40,583 nt of DNA from an uncultured Oscillospiraceae bacterium. GTDB taxonomy: Bacteria; Bacillota; Clostridia; Oscillospirales; Oscillospiraceae. The notes beneath the pieces were generated by a model that had not been told where the DNA came from, ran no database searches, and was given only the letters and a program-made list of their open reading frames with translations. The translations under genes and the position numbers were made by a program. Location: the NCBI GenBank assembly GCA_944385405.1, contig CALWXB010000015.1, positions 1 to 40,583 of the forward strand, read 5' to 3'. Each line of letters opens with the position of its first letter. Positions within the stretch are counted from its first letter, which is position 1. This document shows, one piece after another, positions 1-40,217 of this stretch.

Positions 1-256
1 GCCAGGGGCACTCCGCCAGCTCCGCCGCCGCGGCGTCCATCATGATACGGGTCCGGGCGGCGTCGCTGTCTGCCTCCGGCACCGTCTCCCAGAAGGTCTG
101 CCCCTGGGCCGCACTGGTCCACAGCGCCAGCACCAGTCCCTCCACACCGCCCCGGCACAGCCGGTCCCGGTGAAGGCGCTCCAGCACATGGGTCTCCCCC
201 ATGAGCCGCCGGCGGGTGACATCATATAAAAGGTCCGAATGTCCGTCAAATACCAT
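1..256 (-). CDS. Membrane dipeptidase (peptidase family M19), N-terminal part
   Basis: Only the first 85 codons are present; the gene runs off the left edge. The protein opens MVFDGHSDLLYDVTRRR, which matches the start of the renal/membrane dipeptidase family M19, where the D-G-H-x-D segment supplies the first zinc ligands (His6 and Asp8 here). Family members are zinc enzymes that hydrolyse dipeptides, including D-amino-acid dipeptides. The ATG at 256 is preceded by a GGGAGCGG ribosome binding site. It lies 11 bases after the stop of the DUF819 gene, so the two are almost certainly cotranscribed and may form an uptake-and-hydrolysis pair; that link is inference. The remaining zinc ligands cannot be checked here. 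Confidence 0.8.
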   Translation of the reverse strand, partial: MVFDGHSDLLYDVTRRRLMGETHVLERLHRDRLCRGGVEGLVLALWTSAAQGQTFWETVPEADSDAARTRIMMDAAAAELAECPW

Positions 257-267
257 GTTCCGCTCCC

Positions 268-1509
268 TTACGCCCCCAGGATCCCTCCCACCAGGATGCC
301 CAGGTATGTACCGATCACATAGCCGAAGGTGCCCACCAGCATCACCGGCCCCACCAGGGCGCTCCAGCCCTGGGAGATGGCCATGCCCGCGGCGGTGGTG
401 GGACCGCCGATGTTGGCGTTGGAGGCCAGGATGATGTCCTCCAGATCGAAGTGCAGCAGCTTGCCGCCCACGAAGCAAAAGAGCATGTTCACCGCCACCA
501 TGATGGCCGTGAAGGCCAGCAGCAGCGGCGTCTCCGTCAGGATCTTGGCAACGGAGGCCGGCACACCGATGACGAACAGAAATAGGTAGATGAAGTAGGT
601 GCCCACCTCCTGCGCGCCGGAGAGCCGGGCCACCTGACGCTCGCCCCAAGTGGCGCAGGCCATAGCCACGGTGGTGATCCATACATATTCGCTGCCGAAG
701 AAGGTATGCAGCATGTGCAGCGCCACGCCGGTGTCCGGGATGGCCGCGCTGATGGCGGCGGCGATCCCCTTGCCCACGAACACCACCGCTGTGGAATACG
801 CCACGTCCATGGCGATGTCCTTCAGGGAGATGTCCTTGCGGCTCCAGTAGGCCGCCGCCTGGGTCCGGGCTCCCTGCAGGTCCCCGCTCTCCGCAACGGC
901 GTCGATGTGGGGGTGGGTGTAGTGGCGGCGGAAGAATTTCATCCCCGCAAACAGCAGCAGGGCGAAGAAATAAAGGGCCATCAGCAGATTGTCCGCCACG
1001 GTGGCGGCGCCGGCGATATCGCCCGCGTCAAACTCCGTGGTCAGCGCCGCGAAGTTCACGCCGCCGCCGATGTAGGACCCCGTCATCATAGCAGCCACCG
1101 CCTCCAGCTGCGGAATGTACGGATGCAGCAGGGCGTACGCCGCAAACGCCCCCGCCACCGTGCCCGCCGCGCCGATCAGGAAGATCACCATCATCCGTCC
1201 TGTCTCTCGCCAGATGCGCTTCATGTTGCACTGGAGCAGCAGCAGCGGGATGCCCAGCGGCACCGCGTAGCCCCAGATCACCTTGTCGTACAGCGTGCAG
1301 CTGGTGGGGATGATGCTGAGGTTGGACGCCGCCAGAGCAATGAGCAGCGCGATGATGGCGCCGGAAATCTTGGACGCCCAGACATACTTCTGTTCCAGCC
1401 AGATGGCGAAGGCCACCGACACCACCAGCAGCGTCAAAAGCGCCCAGGTATCGTCGGCGGCGATGAGGCTCTCCCGCCCCAAAATCTCCTGAAACCAGGA
1501 TGCAAACAT
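268..1509 (-). CDS. DUF819 family integral membrane protein
   Basis: 413 residues, almost entirely hydrophobic helices, with the conserved DUF819 (YjcL-like) pattern of paired glycine-rich segments: GSYIGGGVNFAAL near the middle and NANIGGPTTAAGMA near the C terminus. Two such related halves suggest an inverted-repeat secondary transporter fold, but no substrate is established for the family. The frame is open further upstream, but the ATG at 1509 (MFASWFQE) is chosen because it follows a GGAGGGAAC ribosome binding site. A SigA-type promoter lies about 50-80 bases upstream. The M19 dipeptidase starts 11 bases after its stop, so a role in handling peptides or amino acids is possible (inference). 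Confidence 0.85.
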   Translation of the reverse strand: MFASWFQEILGRESLIAADDTWALLTLLVVSVAFAIWLEQKYVWASKISGAIIALLIALAASNLSIIPTSCTLYDKVIWGYAVPLGIPLLLLQCNMKRIWRETGRMMVIFLIGAAGTVAGAFAAYALLHPYIPQLEAVAAMMTGSYIGGGVNFAALTTEFDAGDIAGAATVADNLLMALYFFALLLFAGMKFFRRHYTHPHIDAVAESGDLQGARTQAAAYWSRKDISLKDIAMDVAYSTAVVFVGKGIAAAISAAIPDTGVALHMLHTFFGSEYVWITTVAMACATWGERQVARLSGAQEVGTYFIYLFLFVIGVPASVAKILTETPLLLAFTAIMVAVNMLFCFVGGKLLHFDLEDIILASNANIGGPTTAAGMAISQGWSALVGPVMLVGTFGYVIGTYLGILVGGILGA

Positions 1510-1558
1510 ATACGTTCCCTCCCATTGCGCCCGCCGGAACGGCGGACGGATTGATTTC

Positions 1559-1587
1559 AGTATAGCCGCTTTCGCCCCTTCGCGCAA
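1559..1587 (-). promoter_or_regulatory. Promoter of the DUF819-dipeptidase operon
   Basis: On the minus strand a -35 element TTGCGC (1582-1587) and a -10 element TATACT (1559-1564) are separated by exactly 17 bases. The predicted transcript starts near 1552 and leads to the DUF819 start at 1509. It is divergent from the ylxM promoter. Confidence 0.6.
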
Positions 1588-1645
1588 GTCCGCCCGTATT
1601 TCCCGAATTTTTTTGCAGAAGCGGTGGTTTCTTTCATTTTTTCCC

Positions 1646-1674
1646 TTGACTTTTCTCACAAATTCCTGTAAACT
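1646..1674 (+). promoter_or_regulatory. Promoter of the ylxM-ffh operon
   Basis: TTGACT (1646-1651), a 17-base spacer and TAAACT (1669-1674) give a good SigA promoter with a start near 1681. The short leader holds a perfect 7-bp hairpin (1684-1690 with 1699-1705, loop of 8) ending just before the ylxM ribosome binding site AAAGGAG. It could tune translation of the first gene (inference). Confidence 0.7.
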
Positions 1675-1720
1675 ATTTCTCGTTGTAAAGGCTCACAGCT
1701 TTACAGAAAGGAGTGATCCC

Positions 1721-2086
1721 TTGAAAAATCAGACGTATCGCATGACCATGCTCTTCGATTTTTACGGAGAACTCCTGACAGACCGGCAGAAGGAATTCTT
1801 CGACCTCTACTACAACGAGGACCTGTCCCTGGCGGAGATCGCGGAAAACGCGGGCATCTCCCGGCAGGGCGTCCGGGACGTCATCGTCCGGGCGGAAGCC
1901 ACCATGCAGGAGGTGGAGGACAAGACCGGCATCATCCGGCGCTTTGAGGCCCAGCGTCCCCATCTGGACGCCATTGAGGCCGCCGCTGCCGAGATGAAGA
2001 CCATCAACTTCCGCCGCTACGAGGATCCCCGGCTGACGGAGCTGGCAGATCTCATCGGCGGCGAGATCGCCGCATTGAAGGAATAA
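1721..2086 (+). CDS. ylxM: YlxM/p13-like DNA-binding protein (UPF0122), SRP-associated
   Basis: 121 residues. The central region DLSLAEIAENAGISRQGV is a sigma-70 region 4-like helix-turn-helix, the hallmark of the YlxM/UPF0122 family. Members are encoded next to ffh, and the streptococcal homologue is reported to modulate signal recognition particle activity. The start is TTG at 1721, placed 5 bases after AAAGGAGTG; an ATG eight codons later (MTMLFDFYG) has no comparable ribosome binding site. The gene ends three bases before ffh, so the two are translationally coupled. A DNA target is not evident from the sequence. Confidence 0.88.
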   Translation: MKNQTYRMTMLFDFYGELLTDRQKEFFDLYYNEDLSLAEIAENAGISRQGVRDVIVRAEATMQEVEDKTGIIRRFEAQRPHLDAIEAAAAEMKTINFRRYEDPRLTELADLIGGEIAALKE

Positions 2087-2089
2087 GAC

Positions 2090-3445
2090 ATGGCATTTGA
2101 AGGACTCACCGAAAAACTCACCGCCACATTCAAGCGCCTGCGGGGCAAAGGCCGCCTGACGGAAAACGACGTCCGGGAGGCCATGCGGGAGGTCCGCCTG
2201 GCTTTGCTGGAAGCGGACGTGGGCTACAAGGTCGTCAAGGACTTTATCGCCACCGTCACAGAGCGGGCCATCGGTACCGACGTGCTGGACAGCCTCACCC
2301 CCGCCCAGCAGGTCATCAAGATCGTCAACGAGGAGCTGACGAACCTCATGGGCGGTGCCGGGGCCAAGCTCTCCATGGCCAACAGCGGTCCCACCATCGT
2401 GATGATGGTAGGTCTCCAGGGCGCCGGTAAGACCACCACCACCGCCAAGCTGGCGGGACTTATGCGCAGACAGTATCAGAAGCGGCCGCTGCTGGCCGCC
2501 TGTGACGTCTACCGCCCCGCTGCCATCGAGCAGCTGAAGGTGGTGGGCGCCCAGCTGGACCTGCCGGTTTTTGAGGAGGGCCAGGGCGATCCCGTGAAGA
2601 TCGCAGAGGACGCCATCCGCCACGCCAAGGACCACGGCAGCAGCATGGTCTTTCTGGATACCGCCGGCCGGCTCCATGTGGACGAGACGCTGATGGACGA
2701 GCTCAAGCGGATGAAGGCCGCCGTCCACCCCCACGAGATCTTGCTGGTGGTGGACGCCATGACCGGCCAAGATGCAGTGAACGCCGCCTCCGCTTTCGAT
2801 GAGGCGCTGGGCATCGACGGCGTGGTCCTTACCAAGCTGGACGGCGACGCCCGAGGCGGCGCAGCCCTCTCCATCCGGGCGGCCACCGGCAAGCCCATCA
2901 AGTTCGTGGGCACCGGCGAGAAGCTGGACATGATTGAGCCCTTCCACCCCGACCGTATGGCCTCCCGCATCCTGGGCATGGGCGACATGCTCTCCTTCAT
3001 TGAAAAGGCCCAGGCGGCCTACGATGAAAAGCAGGCGGCCAAGCTGGAGGAGAAGCTGAAGAAAAACAGCTTCACCCTGCAGGACTACTTCGACCAGCTC
3101 CAGCAGATCCGAAACATGGGGGATCTCAGTCAGCTGGCGGGCATGATGCCCGGCGGCCTGGGCAAGCAGCTCCAGGGCGCCACCATCGACGACAAGGCCC
3201 TGGCCCACACCGAGGCCATTATTCTCTCCATGACGCCCCAGGAACGGGAGAACCCCCAGATCCTGGCCGCCAGCCGCAAGCGGCGCATCGCCGCCGGCTG
3301 CGGACTCACTGTGGCGGATGTGAACCGGCTTTTGAAGCAGTTCGAGATGATGCAGCAGCTGACCAAACAGTTCAGCAAGGGGCGTCTCCCCCGCATGGGA
3401 CGGGGCCCCATGGGTGGTTTCGGCCGGAAGAAGCGGCTCAAATAA
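2090..3445 (+). CDS. ffh: Signal recognition particle GTPase Ffh (SRP54)
   Basis: 451 residues, the normal length. Ffh binds the SRP RNA and signal sequences of nascent membrane proteins and, with FtsY, delivers ribosomes to the translocon. The N domain is residues 1-90. The GTPase domain carries the P-loop GLQGAGKTTTT (108-118), DTAGR (190-194) and TKLDGD (248-253). From about 320 on lies the methionine-rich M domain (MMPGGLGK, MTPQERENPQI, FEMMQQL) with the RNA-binding stretch around SRKRRIAAG, ending in a basic tail. It directly follows ylxM and precedes rpsP by 66 bases, the usual Firmicute order. Confidence 0.98.
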   Translation: MAFEGLTEKLTATFKRLRGKGRLTENDVREAMREVRLALLEADVGYKVVKDFIATVTERAIGTDVLDSLTPAQQVIKIVNEELTNLMGGAGAKLSMANSGPTIVMMVGLQGAGKTTTTAKLAGLMRRQYQKRPLLAACDVYRPAAIEQLKVVGAQLDLPVFEEGQGDPVKIAEDAIRHAKDHGSSMVFLDTAGRLHVDETLMDELKRMKAAVHPHEILLVVDAMTGQDAVNAASAFDEALGIDGVVLTKLDGDARGGAALSIRAATGKPIKFVGTGEKLDMIEPFHPDRMASRILGMGDMLSFIEKAQAAYDEKQAAKLEEKLKKNSFTLQDYFDQLQQIRNMGDLSQLAGMMPGGLGKQLQGATIDDKALAHTEAIILSMTPQERENPQILAASRKRRIAAGCGLTVADVNRLLKQFEMMQQLTKQFSKGRLPRMGRGPMGGFGRKKRLK

Positions 3446-3511
3446 CGGTATATAAGTGCACAGCATTTATAGATAAATTTTATTTCAACACAAATCTGGA
3501 GGTACAACATC

Positions 3512-3751
3512 ATGGTCAAGATCAGACTGCGCCGCATGGGCGCCAAGAAGGCTCCTTTCTATCGCGTTGTGGTTGCCGATTCCCGCTTCCCCCGGGACGG
3601 CCGCTTCATCGAGGAGATCGGCACCTACAATCCCTGCGTCTCCCCCGCTGACATCAAGATCGACACGGAGCGCGCTCAGGCCTGGATCAAGTCCGGTGCC
3701 CAGCCCACCGACACCGTGCGGGCTCTGCTGAAAAAAGTGGAAGTCCTCTGA
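3512..3751 (+). CDS. rpsP: 30S ribosomal protein S16
   Basis: 79 residues, typical S16 size. It begins [20 protein letters not shown], a near-universal S16 signature, followed by [21 protein letters not shown]16 is an assembly protein of the 5' domain of 16S rRNA. The ribosome binding site is CTGGAGG. The 66-base AT-rich gap after ffh shows no clear terminator, so it is likely read through from the ylxM promoter. It is 14 bases ahead of khpA. Confidence 0.98.
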
Positions 3752-30635: not shown

Positions 30636-30710
30636 CACTGGTGCATTCCCCACTTCCGCTGCTGACAGATGTGTGGTAGGCTGAAGAAAACGACGCAGGA
30701 GGACTTGATC

Positions 30711-31274
30711 ATGCGATCCTACGCCTTATCAGACCGCATCCAGCGATATTTTCTCTATTTTCTCCTCTATTCCTGCATTGGCTGGGCCTATGAAGTCTTT
30801 CTGGAGGTGGTGGTCTACCGATGGGGCTACTCCGACCGGGGCGTCCTCTTCGGTCCCTATTGTCCGGTATACGGCGTGGGCGCGCTGCTGTTTCTTTTGT
30901 GCTTCCGCCGTCTGATGGACCGCCCCCTTCCGCCGCTGGGCAGGCTGGGACGGCTGGCGGGGATCTTCCTGGGGTGCATGCTCTCCGCCACTGCGCTGGA
31001 ACTGGCCACCAGCTATTTGCTGGAGGCCCTTACCGGCAGCTGGCCCTGGCAGACCTACCGGGATTATGCCTGGAACTTCCAGGGCCGCATCGCTCTCTCC
31101 CCTTCTGTCCGTTTCGGACTGGGCGGACTGCTGTTCCTCTACATTCTCCAGCCCCTTTTCGAACGCATGGTAGGCGCACTGCCGCCTCCGCGGCGCCGGG
31201 TCTGCTTTTGGTCGCTGGCAGTCCTGTTTGCCGCCGACTGCGCCGCCACCTGGATCCTGCCGCTGCTGCGCTGA
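30711..31274 (+). CDS. Putative ABC-transporter type IV / CmpB-like membrane protein
   Basis: 187 residues with about five membrane helices. The N terminus FLLYSCIGWAYEVFLEVVVY and RGVLFGPYCPVYGVGALLFL match the CmpB family (Pfam ABC_trans_CmpB), widespread in Clostridia. No transport function is proven for it and no ATPase lies nearby. The ATG at 30711 follows GCAGGAGGAC; the frame opens 14 codons upstream without a ribosome binding site. It is monocistronic, divergent from mrnC, and ends at a bidirectional terminator. Confidence 0.82.
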   Translation: MRSYALSDRIQRYFLYFLLYSCIGWAYEVFLEVVVYRWGYSDRGVLFGPYCPVYGVGALLFLLCFRRLMDRPLPPLGRLGRLAGIFLGCMLSATALELATSYLLEALTGSWPWQTYRDYAWNFQGRIALSPSVRFGLGGLLFLYILQPLFERMVGALPPPRRRVCFWSLAVLFAADCAATWILPLLR

Positions 31275-31286
31275 GCAAAGGAAAAA

Positions 31287-31318
31287 GCGTCCCGGGCTTT
31301 CGCCCGGGACGCCTTTTC
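31287..31318. terminator. Bidirectional terminator between CmpB-like gene and Cys-rich gene
   Basis: A perfect 11-bp GC stem (31287-31297 with 31302-31312, loop TTTC), flanked by A5 on the left and TTTT on the right, between two convergent genes. Confidence 0.9.
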
Positions 31319-31319
31319 T

Positions 31320-31487
31320 TCAGCAGCAGGGGGTGTTGTTGCAGCCGCCATTGCAGCCGCAGCCGTTGTTGCAGCCGCAGTTGCAGTTGCAGCCGTTGCC
31401 GTTGCTGTTGCCGCAGCAGCACCAGACAATGATCAGCAGGATGATGATCCAGCAGCAGTTGCCGCCACCAAAACCATTATTGCACAT
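31320..31487 (-). CDS. 55-residue Cys/Asn/Gly-rich small protein with one membrane segment
   Basis: The frame reads MCNNGFGGGNCC, then the hydrophobic WIIILLIIVW, then a tail composed almost only of Cys, Asn and Gly, such as CCCGNSNGNGCNCNCG and CNNGCGCNGGC, ending TPCC. Fifteen of 55 residues are cysteine. It has an ideal AGGAGG ribosome binding site, a sporulation-type promoter candidate and a terminator, so it is a real gene despite its size and repetitive DNA. The organisation (glycine-rich start, short helix, Cys cluster) recalls the YjcZ-type small hydrophobic proteins of spore-formers. A role in spore coat cross-linking or metal binding is inference. Confidence 0.7.
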   Translation of the reverse strand: MCNNGFGGGNCCWIIILLIIVWCCCGNSNGNGCNCNCGCNNGCGCNGGCNNTPCC

Positions 31488-33486: not shown

Positions 33487-34398
33487 TCAAACCAGAGCCT
33501 GGAACGCCTCCACGATGGCGTCACAGCTCTCGTGCACCACCATCATCACGTAATTTCCATCGGATACCACCCGGCTGCTGTTGGTCCACAGCTCTGTGGG
33601 GCCGGGATACCAGGCGCCGGTCTCGGCCATGTAGTCCACCCGGCTCTGGAAGATCTCCTTCACGGTGTCCACATCCTTGCTGTCCGTGACCTCCACCAGG
33701 CAGAACTCGCCGTTGTTCATGCTCATCATGGTCCCCATCACCAGGCACTGTTTCGTGGACACGTCGTTGAGCCCGGCATAATAGGCATCCACCAGGTCGG
33801 CGGAAAACTGCTGCAGGGACTGGAACTCATACTGAGAGATCATGTCCTGGTAGAAGGCATTGAGATCCACAGAGGCGGCGGAACCGCTATCCTCTGCGGG
33901 CTTCTCCTCCGGCTTCTCCGTTTTCCAGTTGCACCGGACCGCGCAGGTCCGCTTCTCGCTGCCGCTGGTCACAACGATGATGGCCGTACCCGGAGCCACC
34001 GCCGTGATGGTACCGTCAGCCGCCACCGTGGCCACCTTAGGATCGCTGCTGGCGAAGGTGCACGCTCCCGGTGCACCGGTGACCTGAAGCTGGTAGGTGC
34101 TGCCGGCGGAAAAGAGAGTGAAGTCCGTGCTGCTGAGGGTCATCCCAGCAGCGGCGTCCCCGTCATCCGGCTCCGCCGCGGGAACTTCCTCCGCAGGGGT
34201 CTCGGGCTCCTCCCCGGCAGGCTCCTCCGGCATCTCCTCAGGTGCCTCCTCCTGCTGGCCGTCCTCCGGCTGCACCGTCTCTTCCTGAGTATCCTGAGAC
34301 TCCTGGGCATCTTCCCCGGAAGTCTCCCCGGCACCGCAGGACGCCAGCGCCAGCATCAGCGCCATGGCCATCAAAAGGGCCAAGAGCTTGTTTTTCAT
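33487..34398 (-). CDS. Lipoprotein with bacterial Ig-like (Big_2) domain and C-terminal DUF4358 domain
   Basis: 303 residues. The lipobox is LALASCG, with the lipidated Cys21. A very acidic Glu/Pro/Asp-rich linker (about 22-80) reaches to a Big_2-type domain (about 86-155; TSSTDFTLFSAGSTYQLQVT-like strands, then TFASSDPKVATVAADGTITA and VAPGTAIIVVTSG). The last 110 residues match the DUF4358 pattern: FCLVEVTDSKDVDTVKEIF, then YPGPTELWTNSSRVVSDGNY and VMMVV. Anchored on the outer face of the membrane, it probably spans part of the wall; function unknown. The ribosome binding site is GAGGAGG. It is monocistronic. Confidence 0.78.
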   Translation of the reverse strand: MKNKLLALLMAMALMLALASCGAGETSGEDAQESQDTQEETVQPEDGQQEEAPEEMPEEPAGEEPETPAEEVPAAEPDDGDAAAGMTLSSTDFTLFSAGSTYQLQVTGAPGACTFASSDPKVATVAADGTITAVAPGTAIIVVTSGSEKRTCAVRCNWKTEKPEEKPAEDSGSAASVDLNAFYQDMISQYEFQSLQQFSADLVDAYYAGLNDVSTKQCLVMGTMMSMNNGEFCLVEVTDSKDVDTVKEIFQSRVDYMAETGAWYPGPTELWTNSSRVVSDGNYVMMVVHESCDAIVEAFQALV

Positions 34399-34511
34399 GT
34401 CGTTCCTCCTCGATAAGCCGTTCTTTCCGGCTGTTTGCTGGGATTAGACGGAGGCGTCTGGGAAAAAGTTCCCCACAGCAGCAAAAAAAGAGGAAGATGG
34501 TGAAAAAGGTA

Positions 34512-34540
34512 TTGACAGTCCATTTTTGAACCGATATACT
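34512..34540 (+). promoter_or_regulatory. Strong promoter of the structured RNA / polyamine leader
   Basis: Consensus TTGACA (34512-34517), exactly 17 bases, and TATACT (34535-34540); transcription should start near 34547. No start codon with a ribosome binding site follows for more than 400 bases. Confidence 0.85.
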
Positions 34541-34546
34541 ACCCTT

Positions 34547-34800
34547 GTCATGTGATATGAGTTTTGTACAGAGTATCCATGCAAATATTTCTTCTGACCA
34601 CCCCCTTGGGGGTCAAGGCCATACGGACAGCCGGGTCAACTGCCGAAGGCAACTGGGATGTTGCCATTATTGATTGAGTTAAAAGCTCAATTTTATAAGT
34701 TGGTTACCAAACCATCGCATGGAAGCATGCATCAACTTGTAAAACGGTCAATAAGAGTAGTAAAAGTAAGTATTTGCTATATAGACTCTGTATGAAGCTG
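34547..34800 (+). ncRNA. Highly structured noncoding RNA upstream of speD
   Basis: Two long-range helices close the region: 34567-34574 with 34785-34792 (8 bp) and 34581-34587 with 34771-34777 (7 bp), both perfect. Inside are several local hairpins. 34596-34599 pairs with 34611-34614, with an inner CCC/GGG. 34641-34644 pairs with 34648-34651, mutually exclusive with 34648-34653 pairing with 34660-34665. 34673-34678 pairs with 34686-34691. 34697-34702 pairs with 34733-34738, with small hairpins such as 34717-34721/34726-34730 inside. No open frame with a ribosome binding site is present. The size and multi-helix shape would fit an abundant clostridial RNA such as raiA RNA (or, less well, 6S RNA), or a large leader; I cannot assign the family by eye. 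Confidence 0.7.
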
Positions 34801-34912
34801 CATGGAGCAACTCCCCTCAATGAGGCGGAGGGGGCCTCTCTGCGGGGAGGCGCCGCGCGCACCGGGAAGTATTTTCCACTGCGCTGCGGTCCATCGTGCG
34901 AAAGACGGTTTT
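34801..34912 (+). other. GC-rich spacer between the structured RNA and the terminator
   Basis: No gene is evident. It contains possible stems (CCCCTC with GAGGGG near 34815-34838, and GCCTC with GAGGC near 34838-34856). The frame joining speD is open through this stretch but has no ribosome binding site and would cross the terminator. Confidence 0.4.
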
Positions 34913-34950
34913 GCAGGCAATGTGCATGGATGCGCATTGCCTGCTTTTTT
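34913..34950 (+). terminator. Strong intrinsic terminator ahead of speD
   Basis: A 14-bp stem (34913-34926 with 34931-34944, loop TGGA, one G-U pair), followed immediately by T6. It ends either the noncoding RNA or a regulated leader of the polyamine operon; speD starts 57 bases later. Confidence 0.9.
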
Positions 34951-34972
34951 CCGCGCCTGCAGGCAGAAAATC

Positions 34973-34990
34973 GGCCCGGGACACCGGGCC
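34973..34990 (+). other. Hairpin touching the speD ribosome binding site
   Basis: A perfect 7-bp stem GGCCCGG/CCGGGCC (34973-34979 with 34984-34990, loop GACA) that ends directly against the ACAGGAGG ribosome binding site (34991-34998). It may protect the mRNA end or modulate translation initiation. Confidence 0.5.
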
Positions 34991-35007
34991 ACAGGAGGAC
35001 GACGGAT

Positions 35008-35766
35008 ATGGCAGACAAGCTGAGACTTTACGGATTCAACAACCTGACCAAGGCGCTGAGCTTCAACATCTACGACGTATGCTACGCCAAGTCCGCCCGG
35101 GAGCAGAGGGACTACATCGCCTACATCGACGAACAGTACAACTCCGAGCGGCTGACCAACATCCTCACCACCCTGACGGACATGATCGGCGCCAAGGTCC
35201 TCAACATCGCCAAGCAGGACTACGAGCCGCAGGGTGCCTCTGTCACCATCCTCATCGCCGAGGGGTCCATGATCCCCGCCGGGGAGACCCAGCTGGCCCA
35301 CCTGGATAAAAGCCATGTGACGGTGCACACTTATCCGGAGTACCATCCGGAGACCAGCCTGGCCACCTTCCGGGTGGACATCGACGTGGCCACCTGCGGC
35401 GAGATCACGCCCCTTTCCACCCTGGACTATCTCATCGGGTCCTTCGACTCCGACATCATCACCATGGACTATCGGGTCCGGGGCTTCACCCGGGACATGT
35501 CCGGCCGGAAGCTGTTCATGGATCACCATGTAGCCTCCATCCAGGACTACATCAACCCCGAAACACTGCGCCGCTACGATGCGGTGGATGTGAATGTCTA
35601 TGGATCCAACCTGTTCCACACCAAGATGATGGTCAAGGAGATCGATCTGCAGAACTACCTCTTCAAGACCGACGTCTACGAGCTGCCGCCCCAGACCCGG
35701 CTGGCTATCATGAACAATCTGCGCCGGGAGATGATCGAGATCTTCAGCGGGCGCAACATCTACTAA
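35008..35766 (+). CDS. speD: S-adenosylmethionine decarboxylase proenzyme (E. coli SpeD type)
   Basis: 252 residues, close to the 264 of E. coli SpeD and twice the length of the Bacillus/archaeal type. It makes decarboxylated SAM, the aminopropyl donor. Self-cleavage is expected at Ser102 in [17 protein letters not shown], which becomes the pyruvoyl cofactor. [20 protein letters not shown] and [20 protein letters not shown] are family signatures. The ATG at 35008 follows ACAGGAGG. It is the first gene of the polyamine operon, 12 bases before the decarboxylase gene, and sits behind a terminator, so attenuation is possible. Confidence 0.96.
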
Positions 35767-35778
35767 AAGGAGATCGCC

Positions 35779-37218
35779 ATGGATCAGACCAGAGCGCCCA
35801 TTTATGAGGCGCTGGAGCACTTCCGGAAAATGCGGGTGGTGCCCTTTGACGTCCCCGGCCACAAGCGGGGCCGGGGCAACCCGGAGCTGGTGCGGCTGCT
35901 GGGCGAGCAGTGCGTGGGGATGGACGTGAACTCCATGAAACCCCTGGACAACCTCTGCCACCCCATCTCCGTCATCCGGGAGGCGGAGGAACTGGCGGCG
36001 GACGCCTTCGGCGCCGCCCACGCCTTTTTGATGGTGGGGGGCACCACCTCCGCCGTGCAGAGCATGGTGCTCTCCGTGGTCAAACACGGGGAGAAGATCA
36101 TCCTCCCCCGCAACGTCCACCGCAGCGTCATGGGCGCGCTGGTGCTGTGCGGCGCGGTGCCGGTGTACGTGAACCCCGAGTGTGACGAGCGGCTGGGCAT
36201 CCCCCTGGGGATGCGGCTTTCCGAGGTGGAGCGGGCCATCCGGCAGAACCCGGACGCCAAAGCCGTGCTTGTGAACAATCCCACCTACTACGGCATCTGC
36301 TCTGACCTGCGCGGCATCGTCGACCTGGTCCATCGCAGCGGGATGCTGTGCCTGGTGGACGAGGCTCACGGCACCCACTTCTACTTCCACGACGGCCTGC
36401 CTGTTTCCGCCATGGCGGCGGGAGCGGATCTGGCCGCCGTCTCCATGCACAAGTCCGGCGGCAGCCTCACCCAGAGCAGCCTCCTGCTCACCGGCCCGGG
36501 CGTGTCCCCGGGCTACGTCCGGCAGATCATCAACCTCACCCAGACCACCAGCGGTTCTTACCTGCTGCTCTCCAGCCTGGACATCGCCCGGCGGAACCTG
36601 GCCCTGCGGGGCCGGACGGAATTCGGCCGGGTGATGGAGATGGCGGAGTACGCCCGCAGCGAGATCAACGCCGTGGGCGGCTACTACGCCTTCGGCCGGG
36701 AGCTCATCAATGGCGGCAGCATCTACGACTTCGACGTCACCAAGCTCTCGGTGAACACCCTGGATGTGGGCCTTGCCGGCATCGAGGTCTACGACCTGCT
36801 GCGGGACGAGTACGACATCCAGATCGAGTTCGGCGACCTGGGCAACATCCTGGCCTACCTCTCCATCGGGGACCGCCCCCGGGAGGTGGAGCGGCTGGTG
36901 GGCGCCCTCAGCGAGGTGCGCCGCCGGTTCGGCAAGCCCGGCGCGGAACTGATGAAGCAGGAGTACATCGACCCGGAGGTGGCCGTCTCCCCCCAGGAGG
37001 CCTTCTATGCCCCCAAGCGGCGGCTGCCCCTGGAGGAGACCGTGGGATACGTGTGCAGCGAGTTCGTCATGTGCTATCCCCCCGGCATCCCCATTCTGGC
37101 CCCGGGAGAGCGCATCACCCGGGAGATCATCGCATACATCCGGTACGCCAAGGAAAAGGGCTGCTCCATGACCGGCCCCGAGGACGCGGACATCGCCTTC
37201 CTCAACGTACTGGCTTGA
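35779..37218 (+). CDS. Fold-type I Orn/Lys/Arg decarboxylase, probably biosynthetic arginine decarboxylase
   Basis: 479 residues, the short YaaO/SpeA-type of Firmicutes without the extra domains of E. coli LdcC/AdiA. PLP-binding features are LVDEAHGTHF (192-201) and the Schiff-base Lys225 in VSMHKSGGSLTQSS. The N terminus carries VPFDVPGHKRGRG and GMDVNSMKPLDNL. The substrate is not decided by motifs, but the adjacent agmatinase-type gene points to arginine to agmatine. The ribosome binding site is AAAAGGAG. It is second in the operon, 15 bases before speE. Confidence 0.9.
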   Translation: MDQTRAPIYEALEHFRKMRVVPFDVPGHKRGRGNPELVRLLGEQCVGMDVNSMKPLDNLCHPISVIREAEELAADAFGAAHAFLMVGGTTSAVQSMVLSVVKHGEKIILPRNVHRSVMGALVLCGAVPVYVNPECDERLGIPLGMRLSEVERAIRQNPDAKAVLVNNPTYYGICSDLRGIVDLVHRSGMLCLVDEAHGTHFYFHDGLPVSAMAAGADLAAVSMHKSGGSLTQSSLLLTGPGVSPGYVRQIINLTQTTSGSYLLLSSLDIARRNLALRGRTEFGRVMEMAEYARSEINAVGGYYAFGRELINGGSIYDFDVTKLSVNTLDVGLAGIEVYDLLRDEYDIQIEFGDLGNILAYLSIGDRPREVERLVGALSEVRRRFGKPGAELMKQEYIDPEVAVSPQEAFYAPKRRLPLEETVGYVCSEFVMCYPPGIPILAPGERITREIIAYIRYAKEKGCSMTGPEDADIAFLNVLA

Positions 37219-37233: not shown

Positions 37234-38094
37234 ATGGAATTTTGGTTCAGCGAGCGCCAGACCCCCAATGTGAAGCTCTCCATCCGGGTGGACCGGCAGC
37301 TCTACAGCGGCAAAAGCGAATTCCAGCGCATCGACGTGTTCGAGTCCCCGGAGTTCGGCCGCTTCCTCACCCTGGACGGGTACATGATGCTTACGGAAAA
37401 GGACGAGTTCATCTACCATGAGATGATCGTCCACCCAGCCATGGCGGTACACCCCCATGTGCGGGACGTGCTGGTCATCGGCGCCGGCGACGGCGGTGTC
37501 ATCCGGGAGCTGGTTCGCTATCCGGAGATCCAACACATCGACATGGTGGAGATCGACCCCCTGGTGGTGGAAGTGTGCAAACAGTACCTCCCCGGCACCG
37601 CCCGCTGCCTGGACGACCCCCGGCTCACCATCCACTACCAGGACGGGCTGAAGTTTGTCCGCTCCCCTCAGGACCGGTACGATCTCATCATCGTGGACTC
37701 CACGGACCCCTTCGGCCCCGGCGAGGGCCTCTTCACCCGGGAGTTCTACGGCAACTGCTACAAGGCTCTGCGCGCCGACGGCATCATGGTCAACCAGCAC
37801 GAGAGCCCCTTCTACGAAGAGGACGCCCTGGCCTGCCAGCGGGCCCACAAGCGGATCGTGGAGTCCTTCCCCATCAGCAAGGTCTATCAGGCCCACATCC
37901 CCACCTATCCCTCCGGCCACTGGCTCTTCGGCTTTGCCAGCAAGAAATACCACCCTCTCCGGGATCTGGACGAGGAGCGCTGGAACGCCCGGGACCTCGC
38001 CTGCCACTATTACACCACCACCCTGCACAAGGGGGCGTTCTACATCCCCGCCTACGTAGAGGAGCTTTTGAAACATGTTGAGTCCGCAGATTGA
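37234..38094 (+). CDS. speE: Spermidine synthase-type aminopropyltransferase
   Basis: 286 residues. SpeE transfers the aminopropyl group of decarboxylated SAM to putrescine (or, in some organisms, agmatine). The N-terminal beta domain includes SEFQRIDVFESPEFGRFLTL and DGYMMLTEKDEFIYHEM. The Rossmann part has VIGAGDGGVIREL (81-93) and MVEIDPLVVEV. The catalytic/gatekeeper segment is VDSTDPFGPGEGLF (Asp155 and Asp158). The last 20 bases overlap the ureohydrolase gene. Which amine it accepts cannot be read here and matters for the pathway. Confidence 0.93.
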   Translation: MEFWFSERQTPNVKLSIRVDRQLYSGKSEFQRIDVFESPEFGRFLTLDGYMMLTEKDEFIYHEMIVHPAMAVHPHVRDVLVIGAGDGGVIRELVRYPEIQHIDMVEIDPLVVEVCKQYLPGTARCLDDPRLTIHYQDGLKFVRSPQDRYDLIIVDSTDPFGPGEGLFTREFYGNCYKALRADGIMVNQHESPFYEEDALACQRAHKRIVESFPISKVYQAHIPTYPSGHWLFGFASKKYHPLRDLDEERWNARDLACHYYTTTLHKGAFYIPAYVEELLKHVESAD

Positions 38095-38935
38095 CGTTTT
38101 CATGGGGTGCGACGCCGCCTTCGACCAAGCCGAGACCGTGCTCTTCGGCGCCCCCTTCGACTCCACCACCTCCAACCGTCCCGGCACACGCTTCGGCCCC
38201 TCCGCCCTGCGGCGGGAATCCTACGGCCTGGAGCTGTACAGCCCCTACCAGGATCGGGACCTCAGCGACCGTTCGGTCCTGGACAGCGGCGACATCGAGC
38301 TGCCCATGGGCAGCTCCGCCCTGGCCCTGGAGGCCATCCAGGCCCGGACCGCGGAGATCCTGGCCGCCGGGAAGCGGCCCTTCCTGCTGGGCGGGGAGCA
38401 TCTGGTGACCCTGGGGGCCTTCCGGGCCGTTTATGAGAAGTTCCCGGAGGTGTGCATCCTCCACTTCGACGCCCACACGGACCTCCGGCAGGAGTACCTG
38501 GGCGTGGAGCTGTCCCACGCCTGCGTCATCCGCCGCTGTTGGGACCTCACCGGAGACGGCCGCATCTTCCAGTTCGGCATCCGTTCCGGGGACCGGTCCG
38601 AGTGGCTGTGGGGCAACGATCATGTCTCCACCCATCCCTTTGACCTGGAAGGCCTGGAGGATGCTGTCGCCATGCTGGGTGACAGGCCTGTTTACTTCAC
38701 AGTGGATCTGGACGTGCTGGACCCCTCGGTCTTTCCCGGCACCGGCACCCCGGAGCCCGGCGGCGTGTCCTTCGAGGCGCTGCGGAAGGCCGTGACGCTG
38801 GTGTGCGGCCGGTGCAACGTGGTGGGCTGCGACGTCAACGAGCTGTCCCCGCCCTATGATCCCAGCGGCGTTTCCAACGCCGTGGCGGCCAAGATCGTCC
38901 GGGAGATGCTGCTGGCGTTTCCCGATCACAACTAA
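38075..38935 (+). CDS. speB: Agmatinase-type ureohydrolase (SpeB family)
   Basis: 286 residues. The binuclear manganese site is complete: GGEHLVT (His109), FDAHTDLR (Asp132, His134, Asp136) and VDLDVLDPS (Asp211, Asp213). Two activities fit: agmatine to putrescine plus urea, or aminopropylagmatine to spermidine plus urea. The ATG at 38075 lies within the end of speE, indicating coupled translation. It is located between the SpeE and dehydrogenase genes, consistent with either order of reactions. Confidence 0.92.
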   Translation: MLSPQIDVFMGCDAAFDQAETVLFGAPFDSTTSNRPGTRFGPSALRRESYGLELYSPYQDRDLSDRSVLDSGDIELPMGSSALALEAIQARTAEILAAGKRPFLLGGEHLVTLGAFRAVYEKFPEVCILHFDAHTDLRQEYLGVELSHACVIRRCWDLTGDGRIFQFGIRSGDRSEWLWGNDHVSTHPFDLEGLEDAVAMLGDRPVYFTVDLDVLDPSVFPGTGTPEPGGVSFEALRKAVTLVCGRCNVVGCDVNELSPPYDPSGVSNAVAAKIVREMLLAFPDHN

Positions 38936-38957: not shown

Positions 38958-40217
38958 ATGGCAAAGGCTCTCATCATCGGTTGCGGCGGCGTGGCCGGCG
39001 TGGCCATCCACAAGTGCTGCCAGAACAGCGACGTCTTTGAGGAGATCTGCATCGCCAGCCGCACCCTCAGCCGGTGCGAGGCAGTCAAAAAGGAGCTGGA
39101 GGGCAAGACCCGTACCAGGATCACCATCGAGCAGGTGGATGCCGACGACGTTCAGCAGGTCATCGCCCTGATCCGGAAGGTCCAGCCGGACCTCGTCATG
39201 AACATCGCCCTTCCCTACCAGGACCTCACCATCATGGACGCGTGCCTGGCCTGCGGCGTCAACTACATGGACACCGCCAACTACGAACCGGAGGACATCG
39301 AGGCCCCCGCTTGGCGGGCCGTGTATGAAAAGCGCTGCAAGGAGGAGGGCTTCTCCGCCTACTTCGACTACTCCTGGCAGTGGGCCTACAAGGAGAAGTT
39401 CGAAAAGGCGGGCCTCACCGCCCTCCTGGGTTCCGGCTTCGATCCCGGCGTCACCCAGGCCTACTGCGCCTACGCCCAGAAGCACCTCTTCGACGAGATC
39501 CACACCATCGACATCCTGGACTGCAACGGCGGCGACCACGGCTATCCCTTCGCCACCAACTTCAACCCCGAGATCAACCTCCGGGAGGTGTCCGCCCCCG
39601 GCTCCTACTGGGAGGACGGACACTGGGTGGAGATCCCCCCCATGTCCATCAAGCGGGAGTATGACTTCGACCAGGTGGGCAGAAAGGACATGTACCTCCT
39701 CCACCACGAAGAGATCGAGTCCCTGGCCAAGAACATCCCCGGCGTCAAGCGCATCCGCTTCTTCATGACCTTCGGCCAGAGCTACCTCACCCACATGAAG
39801 TGTCTGGAGAACGTGGGCATGCTCTCCACCACCCCCGTGGAGTTTGAGGGCCACCAGATCGTGCCCATCCAGTTCCTCAAGGCCCTGCTGCCCGATCCCG
39901 CCTCCCTGGGCCCCCGCACCGTGGGCAAGACCAACATCGGCTGCATCTTCACCGGCGTCAAGGATGGCAAGGAAAAGACCGCCTATATCTACAATGTCTG
40001 CGACCATCAGGCGTGCTACAAGGAAGTGGGCTCCCAGGCCATCAGCTACACCACCGGCGTCCCCGCTATGATCGGCGCCATGATGCTGCTGACCGGCAAG
40101 TGGTCCAAGCCCGGCGTCTACACCGTGGAGGAGTTCGATCCCGATCCCTACATGGACGCCCTGAACCAGTGGGGCCTGCCCTGGCAGATCCAGGAGAACC
40201 CCGCCCTGGTGGACTGA
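38958..40217 (+). CDS. Carboxynorspermidine/carboxyspermidine synthase-like dehydrogenase (saccharopine dehydrogenase family)
   Basis: 419 residues. The N-terminal Rossmann motif is ALIIGCGGVAGVAIHKCC. The family landmarks are DLVMNIALPYQDLTIMDACL, GVNYMDTANYEP, the central ALLGSGFDPGVTQAY and the substrate-region DCNGGDHGYPFATNFNPEIN. CASDH condenses an amine (putrescine, diaminopropane, or agmatine in the carboxyaminopropylagmatine route) with aspartate semialdehyde using NADPH. The ATG at 38958 follows CAGGAGGAA. The nspC-type gene begins on its stop codon. Confidence 0.93.
   Translation: MAKALIIGCGGVAGVAIHKCCQNSDVFEEICIASRTLSRCEAVKKELEGKTRTRITIEQVDADDVQQVIALIRKVQPDLVMNIALPYQDLTIMDACLACGVNYMDTANYEPEDIEAPAWRAVYEKRCKEEGFSAYFDYSWQWAYKEKFEKAGLTALLGSGFDPGVTQAYCAYAQKHLFDEIHTIDILDCNGGDHGYPFATNFNPEINLREVSAPGSYWEDGHWVEIPPMSIKREYDFDQVGRKDMYLLHHEEIESLAKNIPGVKRIRFFMTFGQSYLTHMKCLENVGMLSTTPVEFEGHQIVPIQFLKALLPDPASLGPRTVGKTNIGCIFTGVKDGKEKTAYIYNVCDHQACYKEVGSQAISYTTGVPAMIGAMMLLTGKWSKPGVYTVEEFDPDPYMDALNQWGLPWQIQENPALVD

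Follow-up and report, generated by a model that had tools for sequence, protein, structure and literature searches.

A conserved leader RNA containing the Rfam SpF59 domain as a candidate polyamine riboswitch ahead of polyamine genes in Bacillota

Ahead of a polyamine operon in an uncultured Oscillospiraceae bacterium (contig CALWXB010000015.1; the whole stretch analyzed, 40,583 nt, is called the window), a sequence-only reading had placed a large folded RNA behind its own promoter, and had named as possible identities raiA RNA or an undescribed class, and as possible roles a stable structured RNA or a switching leader. The locus raises the question of which RNA this is and whether it governs the genes that follow it. 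As judged from sequence comparison and predicted folding, it is probably a riboswitch that acts in cis on the polyamine operon by transcription attenuation and responds to a polyamine, most likely spermidine (features in Table 1).

Table 1. Promoter, leader RNA, putative switch elements and polyamine genes, by position in the window.
Feature	Position	Strand	Evidence or remark
SigA/sigma-70 promoter, TTGACA-17-TATACT	34512..34540	+	read from sequence; −35 TTGACA 34512-34517, spacer 17 nt, −10 TATACT 34535-34540
Conserved leader RNA (putative aptamer), closed by P1	34567..34792	+	z −6.07, covariation, R1 match
P1	34567-34574/34785-34792	+	8 bp, perfect
P2	34581-34587/34771-34777	+	7 bp, perfect; compensatory changes
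P3 domain = RF02440 SpF59_sRNA (ldcC RNA)	34595..34646	+	cmscan 72.3 bits, E 2.8e-11
P3a	34596-34599/34634-34637	+	
P3b	34600-34605/34608-34613	+	canonical cells 0.862 vs swapped 0.660
P4 hairpin	34648-34653/34660-34665	+	canonical cells 0.950 vs swapped 0.701, best-fit offset
P5	34667-34673/34748-34754	+	98.9% paired, nearly invariant
P6 hairpin	34674-34678/34686-34690	+	two pairs changed on both sides
P7, enclosing P8 and P9	34695-34701/34734-34740	+	95% paired, no covariation
P8	34702-34705/34710-34713	+	within P7
P9	34717-34721/34726-34730	+	within P7; both-side changes (helices 10-11)
Switch strand GCATGCATCAACTTGTA (P9/P7 3' strands)	34725..34741	+	antiterminator partner across homologues
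Most conserved 3' core	34733..34791	+	R2 built on it alone
Putative pseudoknot across P2, AGAGU/ACUCU	34754-34758/34785-34789	+	ACUCU also in P1
Proposed antiterminator strand = terminator 5' arm	34913-34929	+	
Intrinsic terminator (hairpin 34913-34944, T-run 34945-34950)	34913..34950	+	−24.4 kcal/mol
speD, S-adenosylmethionine decarboxylase, first gene of operon	35008..35766	+	TIGR03331 396 bits
Ornithine/lysine/arginine decarboxylase (ldcC/speA-like)	35779..37218	+	PF01276 222 bits
speE, spermidine synthase	37234..38094	+	TIGR00417 304 bits
speB, agmatinase	38075..38935	+	TIGR01230 273 bits
Carboxy(nor)spermidine synthase-like dehydrogenase (CASDH)	38958..40217	+	NF043000 420.6 bits (below cut-off of 800); PF16653 168 bits

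The folded leader is confirmed, with the promoter, both long-range helices (P1 and P2, each perfect as had been read) and a strong fold upstream of speD. The consensus promoter can be read directly in the sequence, and among 109 non-redundant homologues 65 have a promoter-like site upstream, compared with 13 of 109 mononucleotide-shuffled sequences. Folding of 34547-34800 yields a minimum free energy of −86.8 kcal/mol, compared with an average of −59.9 for shuffled versions, none of 200 reaching so low a value, and the hairpins expected between the long-range helices are all found, as P3b, P4, P6, P8, and P9. Two other parts of the window drew attention: a divergent gene on the minus strand (33487-34398), whose lipoprotein-like product carries Big_2 (Ig-like) and DUF4358 domains as well as an acidic stretch of low complexity, and low-complexity repeats (~31100-31430) at and beyond the end of ORF 30669-31274, which read Gln/Leu-rich and Ala/Thr-rich in several frames.

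A cmscan of the full window against all Rfam families, the check that the earlier reading had proposed, gave a single match at gathering, RF02440, described in Rfam as "Streptococcus sRNA SpF59 (ldcC RNA)" and typed as an sRNA, not a riboswitch. The 54-nt model is matched over its complete length (1-54) with a score above its gathering score of 37.2; it represents P3 and a linker only, whereas the full conserved RNA is about 215–225 nt long, roughly four times the length of the Rfam model. Besides RF02440, a cmscan of 34400-35050 at E ≤ 10 returned only isrQ (E 0.57) and DUF805 (E 9.2). raiA RNA, like the leader, is a large structured RNA of Bacillota, but it gave no match at E ≤ 10 in that region, and the raiA identity is rejected along with other known families, RF02440 being the sole match at gathering across the window. 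SAM riboswitches matched neither at gathering in the window nor at E ≤ 10 in 34400-35050.

The RNA is found well beyond its source genome. An exact search with a 25-nt core sequence retrieved at least 117 stretches from named genomes; Bacillus, Neobacillus, Paenibacillus, Cohnella, and many Clostridia are among the core matches listed, and in most listed loci similarity extends beyond the core to a GCTATATAGACTCT motif 155–165 nt downstream of the core start. Two covariance models were used, one of the RNA (R1, 214 positions) and one of the 3' core (R2, 59 positions). R1 scores window positions 34578-34789 at 219 bits, the window itself having been in the training set. Matches to R1 occur in 14 of the 60 relatives searched, the source genome among them, in 6 of 36 other genus members, and in 18 genomes of a phylum-wide sample of 299. 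R2 picks out the same 18, an agreement that is not independent because some of those loci (L166–L169 among them) went into building R2. RF02440 itself matches 18 genomes in a larger sample of the phylum (398 genomes) and 8 of the 40 relatives scanned. Among mobile elements, no match was found in 50,697 phage records and no exact 3'-core match (0) in viral contigs; plasmid records gave one match, in a 2.7-Mb Paenibacillus record.

Five divergent relatives (L166, L168–L171) lack an Rfam match at gathering and match R1 and R2, L170 and L171 weakly (37.6 and 29.5 bits); L166 retains P4 through the 3' end. Since such relatives keep the 3' half, the domain known as RF02440 seems dispensable. The 3' half is probably the core of the RNA, and the 3' core is its most constant part. 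By eye, L168 and L169 (~1600-1720), which lie upstream of speD, are reduced to some 100 nt that hold little beyond P2 and the 3' core. Larger forms were also seen: L150 has a long GC-rich extra hairpin in or near the P8 loop (~1640-1730), a position that consequently appears to tolerate insertions, and Bacillus and Paenibacillus loci of the L010 and L013 class show, by eye, an extra outer helix beyond P1 (GGAAAGC..AATATTC with GAATATT..GCTTTC) and, some 70 nt past the 3' motif of the RNA, a second hairpin.

The structure drawn on the window (P2–P9 and the pseudoknot) was applied to 31 sequences, in which it pairs 82.7% of cells compared with 28–47% for the slid structure, a comparison favored by its derivation from the window; 22 pairs are changed on both sides, in 115 such cells, and 0 of 500 shuffles reach either figure. 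P4 and P8 are poorly aligned in this set (40% and 52.5% paired). An anchored analysis took in those of the 109 non-redundant sequences in which the 3' motif is recognizable (101; n 90–100 per helix); canonical cells exceeded those of swapped arms in P3b and P4 (Table 1), P2 (0.927 vs. 0.816), P6 (0.982 vs. 0.941), and P8 (0.971 vs. 0.948), the offsets of P2, P4, and P6 being picked by best fit, which favors observed pairs. P5 (0.989 canonical, 0.987 swapped), P7 (0.951, 0.951), and the pseudoknot (0.982, 0.978) are all near-invariant, and P5 lacks covariation because it hardly varies. Among 25 distinct sequences the pseudoknot has three both-side changes; it remains putative because ACUCU could pair with the 5' strand of P1 in many sequences. 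On the full set, RNAalifold recovered P3 as the only helix with default scoring and a fuller fold with RIBOSUM scoring, and a phylogeny-aware column-pair scan with a home-made null gave no significant pair (best E 0.75). Conserved structure backed by covariation, as is asked of a riboswitch, is thus present, although the stricter tree-aware scan is not significant.

The genes behind the RNA belong to one pathway. Downstream ORFs were searched with six polyamine queries only (SpeD, decarboxylase, SpeE, SpeB, CASDH, and PotA), and a polyamine ORF starts within 700 nt of the terminator in 131 of the 131 loci with enough DNA, drawn from 140 loci that include near-duplicates (e.g., L007/L023 and L018/L132); in the remaining 9 the sequence stops short of 460 nt past the core. 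L008, a true homologue at the same place as L149 (R1, 177 bits), was left out of the 140-locus counts. The first polyamine match is CASDH in 65 loci, SpeD in 53, the decarboxylase in 8, and PotA in 5, "first" meaning first among the six queries, with an intervening unrelated ORF possible. CASDH is followed by nspC in L033 (Bacillus), and PotA by PotB and PotC (potABC) in L032; CASDH represents an alternative spermidine route, according to part of PMC10413350. R1 led to 12 further genomes (G443, with a contig of the same length as that of L052, is uncounted), 11 of which have SpeD or the decarboxylase downstream. TIGR03331-type SpeD occurs in 7 of 60 relatives, and 6 of these 7 carry the RNA, one of them (G032) elsewhere, before the decarboxylase. 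Two spermidine synthesis routes and an importer share the leader RNA, and consistent placement upstream of the genes of one pathway is a property by which riboswitches are recognized.

Some loci deserve separate mention. L154, one of the 12 further genomes, holds the sole homologue found not before a polyamine gene: its RNA (1501-1729, minus strand), which has a terminator and a matching antiterminator, follows trpB/trpA-like genes and precedes an ORF (2..1366, minus strand) that reads as a secreted, M28-like peptidase of lipoprotein type. G025 (locus L174) carries TIGR03331-type speD yet gives no match with the RNA model; a TTGACA/TATATT promoter-like site lies near its speD, and the locus offers a natural contrast case. 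In L032, a bile salt hydrolase gene (2678-3664, plus strand; NF038245, 434 bits) lies directly upstream of the RNA-potABC unit.

Spermidine is common to the speD/speE route, the CASDH/nspC route, and import by PotABC, and for this reason is the preferred ligand; dcSAM and MTA are unlikely ligands because the CASDH route uses neither. Gene context settles the pathway only, and with a decarboxylase as first polyamine gene in eight loci, the same terminator/antiterminator riboswitch could answer instead to putrescine, agmatine, cadaverine, arginine, lysine, or carboxyspermidine. This is judged unlikely, in that the CASDH-nspC and speD/speE operons have putrescine and spermidine in common and potABC imports both.

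How the leader might act on these genes is suggested by what follows it. Among 127 of the 140 loci with a recognizable 3' motif, 124 had enough sequence for a terminator scan, and a hairpin with a T-run follows the RNA in 118 of 124, compared with 14 of 124 dinucleotide-shuffled sequences, the strongest hairpin before a T-run being picked, which may not be the real terminator in some loci; a scan limited to even hairpin lengths gave 59 of 123, compared with 9 of 123 after shuffling. When the whole RNA is searched for the strand that pairs best with the terminator 5' arm, 68 of 92 loci give the CTTGT strand (P7 3' side) and 24 another site, while shuffled arms choose that strand in a mean of 7.4 and at most 14 loci (100 shuffles). 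Over 25 clusters of dissimilar sequence, pairing with the cognate arm averages −14.5 kcal/mol vs. −11.7 when arms are permuted (none of 20000 permutations reaches so low a value), and coupled changes occur in L093 (CGUCA/UGACG), L139 (CAUCA/UGAUG), and L133 (CAUCACAC/GUGUGGUG). Thirteen loci that had played no part in forming the idea were added later; in 5 of the 10 scorable ones the arm hits the P7 strand, compared with 49/500 with shuffled arms, and one of the ten, L143, whose arm misses it, is nearly identical to the window and so not truly held out. For the window's own arm, the best partner is the 5' side of P2 (−16.9 kcal/mol), with −13.6 for the P7 strand in a restricted test, which leaves the switch with firmer support in the class than in the window copy. 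An expression platform with mutually exclusive folds, such as a riboswitch needs, thus appears to exist in the class, with a weaker case in the window. The suggestion of a switching leader holds up, through the polyamine-gene context, the terminator, and the covarying antiterminator.

The switch proposed earlier was a different one, between two hairpins (34641-34651 and 34648-34665) that share a GGCA segment. Both exist in the window, and among 107 homologues the first could form with 4 bp in 90 and with 3 bp in 100. Homologues with a changed P4 arm (e.g., L027, L080, L112, and L118) lose the 4-bp alternative and retain P4, which makes this pair weak as a switch; it was rejected in favor of competition between the P7 3' strand and the terminator 5' arm as more likely.

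The promoter and terminator together would yield a discrete transcript of about 400 nt, and a stable structured RNA, the other role suggested earlier, could exist as the terminated leader. Such a transcript, together with the sRNA type given to RF02440 and the name SpF59 sRNA, would also suit a trans-acting small RNA; however, fixed position and orientation before polyamine genes and an antiterminator covarying with an aptamer strand are cis features, and a trans role is very improbable. Less remote, though still improbable, is a leader governed by an RNA-binding protein or by leader-peptide translation in place of a metabolite: any terminator/antiterminator leader fits such control, and the near-invariance of P5, P7, and the 3' core could suit a protein site, but the complexity of the RNA and its putative pseudoknot look aptamer-like. 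The alternatives to a polyamine riboswitch with spermidine as ligand may thus be ordered as another compound of the pathway, then a protein or leader peptide, then a trans role.

The polyamine riboswitch reading is supported by the structure, the gene association, the terminator, and the antiterminator complementarity and covariation across homologues. From these we infer that the RNA binds a ligand, that the ligand is a polyamine, and that binding turns the genes OFF. The promoter would make the leader, of which 34567-34792 would be the sensor. With ligand, the sensor fold would be held and the 3' strand of P7 would stay paired inside it, the hairpin 34913-34944 would form, and transcription would end at the T-run before speD; without ligand, 34725-34741 would be captured by the terminator 5' arm, a pairing that would prevent the terminator and let the operon be read. 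Cells with plentiful polyamines would in this way shut polyamine genes down. The sign is taken as OFF with ligand for economy: polyamines are what the genes make or import, and P7, whose 3' strand is the antiterminator partner, is part of the sensor, so that a held sensor frees the terminator. The predicted optimum in the window is already the terminated state without any ligand, and switching would therefore have to be kinetic.

Two described RNAs invite comparison. A rare SAM-I variant that precedes ldcC, speE, speB, and speD genes and was tested as a spermidine OFF switch is presented, in the parts of Salvail et al. (2023; PMC10853860) consulted, as the first well-supported spermidine riboswitch, with further polyamine classes expected; it stands before the same kinds of genes and would be a functional analogue, but it has the SAM-I fold, to which the window RNA is unrelated, and membership is rejected for want of any SAM family match. 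The potE motif, as described in passages of Brewer et al. (2021; PMC8632094), is likewise a candidate RNA, about 200 nt from a polyamine transport gene; compared by that description, it differs in being confined to Veillonella and environmental samples, with covariation and an expression platform that are not well supported.

Of the earlier suggestion of an undescribed class, one part fails, as 34595-34646 is an already known Rfam family, and the other stands: no description of the full RNA, its 3' core, the terminator switch, or the polyamine link was found in the literature searched, which lay mostly outside subscription papers. The terms ldcC, polyamine, spermidine, and SpF59 do not occur in PMC11109978, and RF02440 does not appear as a polyamine-gene switch in passages of PMC8632094 and PMC6429828. 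The name "ldcC RNA" suggests that the association with polyamine genes was perhaps noted before, and for this reason, and because most subscription papers lay outside the search, priority is uncertain. The whole RNA is a candidate new riboswitch class. Chances are about even that it forms a second natural class of polyamine riboswitches, independent of SAM-I and found in many Bacillota, about 215–225 nt long with a 3'-core pseudoknot, with minimal forms of about 100 nt (L168, L169) that lack the Rfam domain, and in control of two spermidine routes and import.

The polyamine-riboswitch hypothesis is directly testable with purified RNA, and the short form of L168 and L169 would be a minimal version useful for structural study. 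If the hypothesis is true, this larger, independent, and more widespread class would show how an RNA selects one flexible polycation amid non-specific binding, and would explain how gut Clostridia and relatives of Bacillus and Paenibacillus balance polyamine synthesis and uptake.
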